From the NCBI RefSeq assembly GCF_024124765.2, contig NZ_JAMXSR020000002.1, positions 85,001 through 149,000 on the forward strand: DNA of 64,000 nt, written 5' to 3'. Shown here in pieces: positions 4,031-5,732 of this stretch. Position 1 is the first letter of the stretch. Every line of letters starts with the position of its first letter. The notes beneath the pieces were generated by a model. That model was not told the origin of the DNA. It ran no database searches and was given only the letters and a program-made list of their open reading frames with translations. Origin of the DNA: Sphingomonas sp. H160509 (GTDB lineage: Bacteria > Pseudomonadota > Alphaproteobacteria > Sphingomonadales > Sphingomonadaceae). Both the position numbers and the translations under genes were made by a program.

Positions 4031-4107
4031 CGCGGGGTGGAGCAGCCCGGTAGCTCGTCAGGCTCATAACCTGAAGGTCACAGGTTCAAATCCTGTCCCC
4101 GCAACCA
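4031..4107 (+). tRNA. Initiator tRNA-Met (CAT)
   Basis: It starts CGCGGGG and ends CCCCGCA plus encoded ACCA, so the first base pair is the C-A mismatch typical of initiator tRNA. The anticodon CAT is at 4065-4067. It closes the rRNA operon. Its 3' half is also read on the other strand as the C-terminal codons of the recombinase at 4064-5732, so it is the likely integration site of the following island. Confidence 0.97.
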
Positions 4108-5732
4108 CCACTATAGAACTCGACATGCCGCCCTTACGGGCGGCGTTGTCGTTTGTGGCAAAGGCGACGAGGTCTGCGACCTTAGCGACGACCTCCGCCT
4201 CCGGGCCATCCGTGCCGTCCGGGTAGATCGTCACGCTTTCGATAAGCGTCGACAGGATTTCTGCGGCTCCGCCGCGGACCGTCTCGGCATCGAGCGCCTC
4301 GCGCAAGCGGCCGACCTTCTCCTTGAACAGTTGCTGCACTGCCGGACGCGACAGAATCGTCGCGGAGGGGCGCGACCGCCGTTGGCGTATTCAACTGTCC
4401 TTCAAGGCGCGCTTTCTCGGCCTCGCGGTCGCCAAGGAGCTTCAGCAGGGCGGGGCTCGCCACCGCGGCCAGCATGTTGGCGGCCAGCGTGTCGATCTCG
4501 CGGGTGACTACGGCGAGGCGGTCGATGATCGATTGATCCTGCCTCGCGGACGTGCTCGTCAGCCGTGCCAGCTCCCGCTGGAACTCCTCGGCGAACAGCC
4601 GAGCATGATCCTCGGTCAGCAACTGGTGTTGGAGAATCGAGAGGGTCGCCGTTTCGAGGGGGCCCTTGCGTACCGAGACCGTGTTCGAGCAGGTGCCGCG
4701 CTCCTTCTGGCCGGCGCAGCGATAATAGTCCTTGCCCGATATAGTGTAGCCCGACCCGCAGCAGCTGCAGCGGATGAGTCCCGACAGCAAGTGCTTCCTG
4801 CGGTTCTGACGGGCGACCGGAACACCGGTGCTGGGACGCGAACGGTGCTCGATCTGGGTCTGAACCGCGCTCCACTGTGCGTCATCGACGATGCGCAGAT
4901 CAGGTACGGCGACCTCGATCCATTCTGAATGTTCGCGTAGGCGATAGCGTCGCTCGCGCTTCTCGCTGTCCGGGTTGCGACGCCATTGCCGGCGTCCCCA
5001 TACCAGCCGGCCGACATAAAGCGGGTTGTTGAGAATGCCGGTCGCCTTTTTCGGGTCGCCGCGGACCGTCGAGGCATTCCATTGCCCGCCGCGCGGACCG
5101 GGCACGCCGTCGGCATTCAGCCTGGTCGCAATCTGGATGGAAGACGCTCCGGCCGCGAACTCGGTAAAGATCCGCTCGACGATTGCGGCCTGTGCCTTGT
5201 CGACCTCCAGCAGGCCGCGAACGCGCTCGCCGCGGTCGTCGAGGCGGATGACCCGCTTGTAGTCATAGGAGCGACCGCCGGCACACCGTCCCGCAAGCAC
5301 CGCTGCCTCCATGCCGCGCAAGGTCTTGTCAATGAGGTGCTTGAGGAAGATCGCGCCCAGCAGCCCGGCGACGGCGAACTTGATCTCGTCGACATGCCCC
5401 TCGCTCACCGTGTGCAACTGCACCCGGTGGTATGCCAACTTCTTGCCGAGCCACGCCACATCCTCCGCGTCTCGCGCAAGCCTGTCGAGCGCTTCGCAGA
5501 CGATCAAGTCGACTGTTCCCGACTCGATGTCCGCCAGCAGTTTCCTCAGGCCGGGCCGATCACGGCGATAGCCGGACTGCTCGGGGTCGTGATAGGTCGC
5601 TATCACCGCGCCGCCAACATAGGCGACAAGCTTCATGCACGATTCTGTCTGATCAATACTCGACGTAGCCGTTTGCATCGCGGTCGAGTGGCGCCCGTAG
5701 AGGACGATGCGGGGGGCAGGGCGCATCAGCAT
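4064..5732 (-). CDS. Large serine recombinase (resolvase family), one frameshift
   Basis: This is a site-specific DNA recombinase that probably moves the neighbouring island. The N-terminal resolvase domain has the motif YGRHS with the likely catalytic Ser16, followed by LIVCEALDRLARD. A recombinase domain comes next (NPLYVGRLVWGRR), then a zinc ribbon with CSCCG and further cysteines (residues about 330-365) and a C-terminal coiled coil. The long frame runs 5732 to about 4340. The true C-terminus continues in another frame (4339-4064, from QLFKEKVGRLREAL), so there is a one-base shift near 4340. The final residues GTGFEPVTFRL are the antisense reading of tRNA-fMet, a C-terminal tag known from elements integrated at tRNA genes. 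Whether the shift is real or a sequence error cannot be told here. Confidence 0.85.

Follow-up and report, generated by a model that had tools for sequence, protein, structure and literature searches.

The window, the whole stretch of 64,000 nucleotides that was analysed, opens on a ribosomal RNA operon, downstream of which a large serine recombinase gene on the opposite strand runs into the tRNA-fMet gene. The features of the window that concern us here are as follows.

Start of the window: tRNA-Ile and tRNA-Ala, before the 23S and 5S rRNA genes
766-3565: 23S rRNA, upstream of tRNA-fMet (Rfam)
3790-3904: 5S rRNA, between 23S rRNA and tRNA-fMet (Rfam)
4031-4107, plus strand: tRNA-fMet (CAU), the proposed integration target (ARAGORN, Rfam)
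4064-4096, minus strand: final 11 codons of the recombinase (TGFEPVTFRL and stop), antisense of the tRNA-fMet 3' half, on the host side of the inferred crossover
4064-4339, minus strand: recombinase C-terminal part in a second frame (ORF ending TGFEPVTFRL and stop)
4096-4097, minus strand: inferred crossover dinucleotide GA, tRNA positions 65/66; attP symmetry centre in relatives and common to their attL and attR
4098-4119, minus strand: inferred P half-site, containing the core GGTTGCGGG (4098-4106) and matching the P half-sites of relatives
4127-4156, plus strand: terminator-like hairpin and T-rich stretch within the recombinase coding end, facing the rRNA-tRNA operon
4182-5732, minus strand: large serine recombinase, N-terminal and middle part (ORF), with its final stretch out of frame
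9942-12998: MobA/MobL relaxase (Pfam)
17659-18894: tyrosine recombinase
31527-33080, 54172-55602 and 59068-59727: IS66 and DDE transposases and an IS21-type IstB

The larger of the two recombinase ORFs contains the Pfam domains Resolvase, Recombinase and Zn_ribbon_recom, in that order. It also carries the residues R8, S16, D83, R84 and R87, which are invariant across ten aligned relatives and include the catalytic serine and active-site residues. The smaller ORF ends in VVVAGTGFEPVTFRL, followed by a stop at 4064-4066 that overlaps the tRNA-fMet anticodon. The original prediction that the recombinase end reads through the 3' half of this tRNA is thus borne out, as is its description of the gene as 'repaired': over 4064-5732 of the minus strand the frame switches between the two ORFs. 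In the unbroken relatives L005 and L160, the TGFEPVTFRL ending and its stop are in frame. L005, with 97% identity across 455 residues, shares the ending and lies at the same tRNA type; its structure model, of low confidence, has long helices at residues 374-421 and 427-448 in the C-terminal region, where a large serine recombinase would have a coiled coil. Because the genome, in 5 contigs, is rated 80.6% complete and another gene of the window also looks split in two (overlapping frames at 51171-51890 and 51823-52458, presumably HipA-like), the frame break may be a sequencing error. The tRNA-fMet sequence is the same in all four copies within the genome.

We then took a census of recombinase ends at 146 related loci, which formed 112 clusters at 90% identity with the window's own copy excluded; a single cluster may fall into more than one class. 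The recombinase ended inside a tRNA in 64 of the 112 clusters, 52 of them in tRNA-Met(cat) and 12 in other tRNAs (Gly ccc 6, Gly tcc 2, Gly gcc 1, Asn 1, Thr 1, Glu 1). A stop just ahead of the tRNA was found in two clusters and an element-encoded tail in 12. Ten clusters ended in a tRNA 3' half without a whole tRNA, two of them solely through cut sequence; L027 and L142 of this class are cut by a contig end and by N. A further class of 11 clusters ran into a contig end or N, and the remaining 24, classed as 'other', include some disrupted genes. The 52 tRNA-Met(cat) clusters comprise 35 with fMet-type tails, 11 with a second CAU type that we take as elongator tRNA-Met, and six variants. Since the arrangement is conserved across recombinase clusters, we ruled out that the antisense tail is unique or due to chance. 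Proteins ending in GFEPVTFRL, easily written off as tRNA-antisense artefacts, can therefore be real recombinase ends. Among the related recombinases, those at L271, L273, L276, L277, L279-L281, L290 and L291 extend into tRNA-Gly (CCC or TCC), where their stop lies.

The reading phase of the core is conserved as well. Of 105 loci examined, a redundant set from which loci of the window genome and long stretches (L001-L004 and L054-L129) as well as the partial L023 and L035 were removed, 74 had a core-like match, and this lay in the same phase in 70. The exceptions are the window's broken copy, L153, L175 and L038. Linker length from the last conserved helix to the core took 15 different values among 46 representatives, and the phase was kept in all of them; the longest linkers probably contain tandem units. 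These 46 stand for the 52 tRNA-Met(cat) clusters, six with a variant tail having been missed by the pattern, and they also served for the hairpin counts given below.

To locate the crossover we relied on attP sites of relatives, reconstructed in silico or, in intact cases, taken straight from the sequence. These are inverted repeats around one central dinucleotide, with a mean of 13.2 matches out of 22 (n = 22 sites), compared with 5.4 of 22 (sd 2.0) when the centre is shifted; 51 hybrid attL sites gave 5.4, as expected. The central dinucleotide corresponds to tRNA positions 65/66, or 4096-4097 in the window, and is common to the attL and attR of relatives. Recombinases of relatives that lie away from a tRNA have endings that diverge beyond the point matching window position 4096. 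With the crossover at tRNA positions 65/66, the last residues and the stop of the integrated recombinase are therefore host DNA.

Far ends were located in eight of the 21 stretches of relatives searched, 27-98 kb off, and none was found in the other 13. In G202 there is an additional, nearer candidate at 19 kb, which by eye mirrors the P half-site of its own recombinase perfectly over 22 bases. An empty site was recovered for the G718 element, whose rebuilt target is present whole in the related genome G686 (query 1-170, 84%); its first 107 nt also have a match of 100% identity at a different tRNA-fMet copy in G718. For G001, nine genomes of its genus, including two carriers, contained no whole empty site. 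The relatives were expected to provide an empty site and the element a matching att sequence at its far end, and each expectation holds in part: the former for G718 and not for G001, the latter in eight of the 21 stretches and not convincingly for the window copy. Likewise, the predicted integration into tRNA-fMet is upheld for the family by attL, attR, attP symmetry and the empty site in relatives, while the mobility of the window copy itself is putative. All mapped att pairs are candidates for directing site-specific integration to a conserved tRNA.

Searches with cores of 27, 25 and 12 bases detected no exact core copy at the far end of the window element, and a 10-base core was absent on the correct strand within about 600 kb downstream; the 31 matches of the ten-base search were sorted by strand and distance, not individually read. 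Two extra 12-base matches in the genome lie inside reading frames, which we take to be peptidase-like and transposase-like, and were dismissed as chance. A one-mismatch match at 22468-22479, in a search for which 0.48 such matches are expected by chance in all, was also rejected, its symmetry being 6 of 22. Of nine relaxed-core candidates in the window, the best (53362) deviates from the core at two positions and has a symmetry of 10 of 22 (mean of the nine 6.2); it is a weak candidate for the far-end att site. Because its frame is broken and a convincing far end is missing, the window copy has probably decayed, and we read it as what is left of the left end of an island of this kind. All four tRNA-fMet genes of this genome have recombinase-family sequence downstream; at the other three (L001, L003 and L004) these are serine recombinase remnants of 41-53 residues with 61-75% identity. 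The MobA/MobL relaxase suggests a mobilisable element. The three adjoining ORFs scanned for a second, smaller serine recombinase, as a DsiB- or Ccr-type island would have (6000-7229, 7979-8827 and 9024-9950), gave no Pfam match.

We interpret the junction of tRNA-fMet and recombinase as the left end, attL, of an integrative element whose recombinase carries the att site in its 3' end, so that integration and excision swap the C-terminus, and we give this reading a probability of roughly 0.85. The overlap, the phase, the att sites, the empty site and the alternative tails are demonstrated in the sequences of the relatives, and the window copy would have arisen as theirs did. According to this model, the large serine recombinase would hold the attachment site of its element at the extreme 3' end of its own gene and would cross over at the acceptor/T-stem junction of tRNA-fMet, at positions 65/66. 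In the integrated form the gene would read from the core into the tRNA antisense and stop at the CAU anticodon, giving a host-side tail of 10 residues. In the circular form the same frame would enter the other end of the element and give a tail encoded by the element, in many cases 13-14 residues long. Each integration or excision would hence exchange the C-terminus of the recombinase.

Element-encoded endings occur in L006 and L007, relatives that are 95% identical and beside which no tRNA was found; they read TCSHFNLLTRCRC and TCSHFDLLTNGRC, each with its own stop. The original prediction held that the element completes its own gene on the host side. This is true of the integrated form, where host DNA supplies the final 10 residues as well as the stop, but a need of the gene for the host to complete it finds no support in L006 and L007, which have a stop without a tRNA. 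A complete C-terminus away from any tRNA had been named as evidence against the prediction; it is present in these two loci, yet it fits tail exchange.

We collected such tails from copies that are not at a tRNA and from rebuilt circles with a known far end, and retained 25 after dropping L138, with a tRNA-like tail, from the initial 26. A stop fell at codon 13-14 after the core in 13 of the 25 (12 of 24 clusters) as opposed to one of 50 in the other two frames (Fisher p = 4.7e-7), the codon 13-14 interval having been picked after the data had been viewed. In 2000 shuffles the mean number of stops at these codons was 1.08 and the maximum was 6. The 13 tails use all three stop codons (TGA 7, TAA 3, TAG 3). 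One of the 25 has an earlier stop; the remaining 11 extend further or show no stop within the sequence read. We take this pattern as evidence that the element-encoded ending is selected coding sequence, in which case integration would swap an element-encoded tail for a tRNA-encoded one. If true, integration rewrites the end of its own enzyme, making the difference between the free and the integrated recombinase DNA-encoded.

Two sets of candidate free forms were rejected. L006, L007 and L036 might have lain on small circular contigs, but G750:C15, G747:C177 and G212:C16 have no exact contig-end overlap of 15-299 bases, and the three loci are therefore read as tandem or other non-tRNA contexts. 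Contig G212:C16 also has a further core, with AG, 36 kb upstream. The second set consists of eight loci in which non-tRNA DNA follows the tail (L010, L133, L135, L140, L147, L151, L156 and L181); since an integrase-like frame follows in six of them, the free-form reading was discarded. In these six (L010, L133, L135, L140, L147 and L156), a displaced tRNA 3' half with the stop precedes the integrase-like frame. Five of the frames behind the displaced tail have Pfam tyrosine-integrase domains, and that of L147 has no Pfam match. Apparently, another element had its crossover in the anticodon loop, immediately beyond the stop of the recombinase.

Some relatives contain several att sites in tandem. 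A pattern search for such arrays in three overlapping sets of 397, 372 and 151 genomes gave matches in 14 genomes each, of which 5, 4 and 4 were read as tandem attP units and the remainder as unrelated; the surrounding DNA was viewed for at least ten loci, and the others were judged by the match alone. The array of G412 is degenerate (1/13) and was excluded from the counts. In the 12 remaining arrays, each central dinucleotide is GG, GA or AG. The sites within an array are all different in 10 of the 12, with G387 (GG, GG) and G762 (GA, AG, GA) as exceptions, although these counts are not independent because several arrays have common ancestry. The three-site arrays of G189, G212, G718 and G682 contain GG, GA and AG each, in three different orders, the third core of G682 having one mismatch. 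Symmetry was 11-19 of 22 in the 17 array units scored, where G387 has one higher-scoring shifted centre. Except in G412, the unit lengths are divisible by three, and the frame therefore stays open from unit to unit. In G189 and G718, for which both ends are known, the attL and attR dinucleotides are identical and the sites left unused are on the side predicted.

The same dinucleotides occur at the tRNA attL sites of the 35 fMet clusters (GA 20, GG 12, AG 3). The tRNA pattern was matched in 59 of 96 genomes drawn class-wide, with sense-strand dinucleotides CC (equal to GG) in 44, TC (GA) in 10, TT (AA) in two, GC in one, CT (AG) in one and both CC and CT in one. AA and AG are thus similarly rare across the draw, and AA is absent from the arrays. 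The arrays hint at a way for a single element to track a target tRNA that varies by one or two bases between hosts. At L344 in G762, the last of the three cores lies inside tRNA-fMet, and no recombinase is in view; this is possibly a collapsed element of which the first and last core are the two ends.

Many members of the family also have a strong hairpin just before the core, with a T-rich stretch behind it as read on the host strand. Compared with dinucleotide shuffles, its folding had a z-score below -2 in 28 of the 46 representatives (median -2.6). Since insertion would shift the host's own terminator to the far end, the hairpin likely ends transcription of the rRNA operon before it runs antisense through the recombinase.

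Three other explanations bear on these observations. The antisense tail could be a coincidence, the island having been placed by another integrase such as the tyrosine recombinase at 17659-18894. The window indeed has this gene and the relaxase, and in some relatives tyrosine-integrase genes adjoin tRNA-fMet sequence, but the recurrence of the arrangement in 52 clusters at tRNA-Met(cat) and the symmetry of the attP sites in relatives make this explanation highly improbable. A more serious contender, to which we grant slightly less than an even chance, is that the tail is a neutral by-product and that the enzyme functionally ends at the helix ending in DLVAFA, the rest being translated att DNA. 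The tail is disordered in the L005 model, which is itself poor (mean pLDDT 58.6), and the element-encoded tails are of other length in 12 of 25 cases. Moreover, L037 stops ahead of its core and L293 ahead of its tRNA, and L053, L278, L282, L285, L296 and L305, all without a tRNA, end shortly past the helix. Against neutrality, the phase is constant across the 15 linker lengths, the stop at codon 13-14 recurs with differing stop codons, and 24 of the 25 element-encoded tails have no earlier stop in frame. The tail may matter to the enzyme.

The tandem core repeats, for their part, could be scars of repeated insertion and deletion rather than allele-matched attP arrays. The repeated dinucleotide of G387, the degenerate array of G412 and the common ancestry of several arrays agree with this, as does the absence of a recombinase in view at the GA, AG, GA stretch of G762 and likewise in G867, G144 and G532. 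Scars would not be expected to yield array units as symmetric as those scored here when shifted centres average 5.4 over all sites (the one centre in G387 apart), all-different sites in 10 of 12 arrays, the three dinucleotides in three orders in G189, G212, G718 and G682, or unused sites on the predicted side in G189 and G718. We consider scars rather unlikely.

Returning to tail exchange, we tentatively propose, as a speculation that we think more doubtful than not, that the exchangeable tail is a state label. An element-encoded tail, frequently of 13-14 residues, would mark the free form and a tRNA-encoded tail of 10 residues the integrated form, tuning integration versus excision. In addition, the in-frame attP arrays would let one recombinase use the GG, GA and AG alleles of tRNA-fMet in different hosts, with the gene readable at any site.

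Parts of this arrangement are already in print, namely the overlap of a serine integrase 3' end with its att site (DsiB) and the role of the dinucleotide (Bxb1). The closest precedent is DsiB, the ssrA-specific serine integrase of Dehalococcoides genomic islands, whose stop codon is found past the end of the island, within either the RNA gene or an adjacent island, and which its authors suggest may be fully functional only if encoded on a circular element (PMC3146451). Like the window recombinase, DsiB adjoins attL and its 3' end overlaps the att site, but its target is tmRNA (ssrA) whereas the window family targets tRNA-Met(CAU); the passages on DsiB make no mention of a conserved element-encoded stop, a hairpin or an attP array (PMC3146451). 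In Bxb1, the central dinucleotide sets polarity and attP is partly symmetric around it, as in the window family (PMC3642061). Bxb1-type phage integrases, as described in part of that source, differ from this family, in which attP lies in the recombinase 3' end, the target is a tRNA and some relatives have several attP units (PMC3642061). The parts consulted of PMC8627217 and PMC12884075 contain no closer case. Titles and abstract openings of the open-access literature yielded no conserved element-encoded ending or tail exchange, no allele-matched attP arrays and no embedded hairpin in such a family. The SCCmec Ccr recombinases are distant sequence relatives: the CcrB model (NCBIfam) scores 67 bits for L005 and 62 bits for the window ORF, far under the 900-bit cut-off. 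The XisF model (NCBIfam) scores 70 bits for the window ORF against a cut-off of 375.

Two minor observations concern gene pairs. At L286 (G294), where no tRNA was found adjoining, two family recombinases are arranged tail to tail in a space of 3.7 kb, one end of which has core-like sequence. In the window, two similar proteins, presumably SRAP-like, are encoded in opposite orientation at 36326-37099 and 42709-43461, with about 5.6 kb between them.
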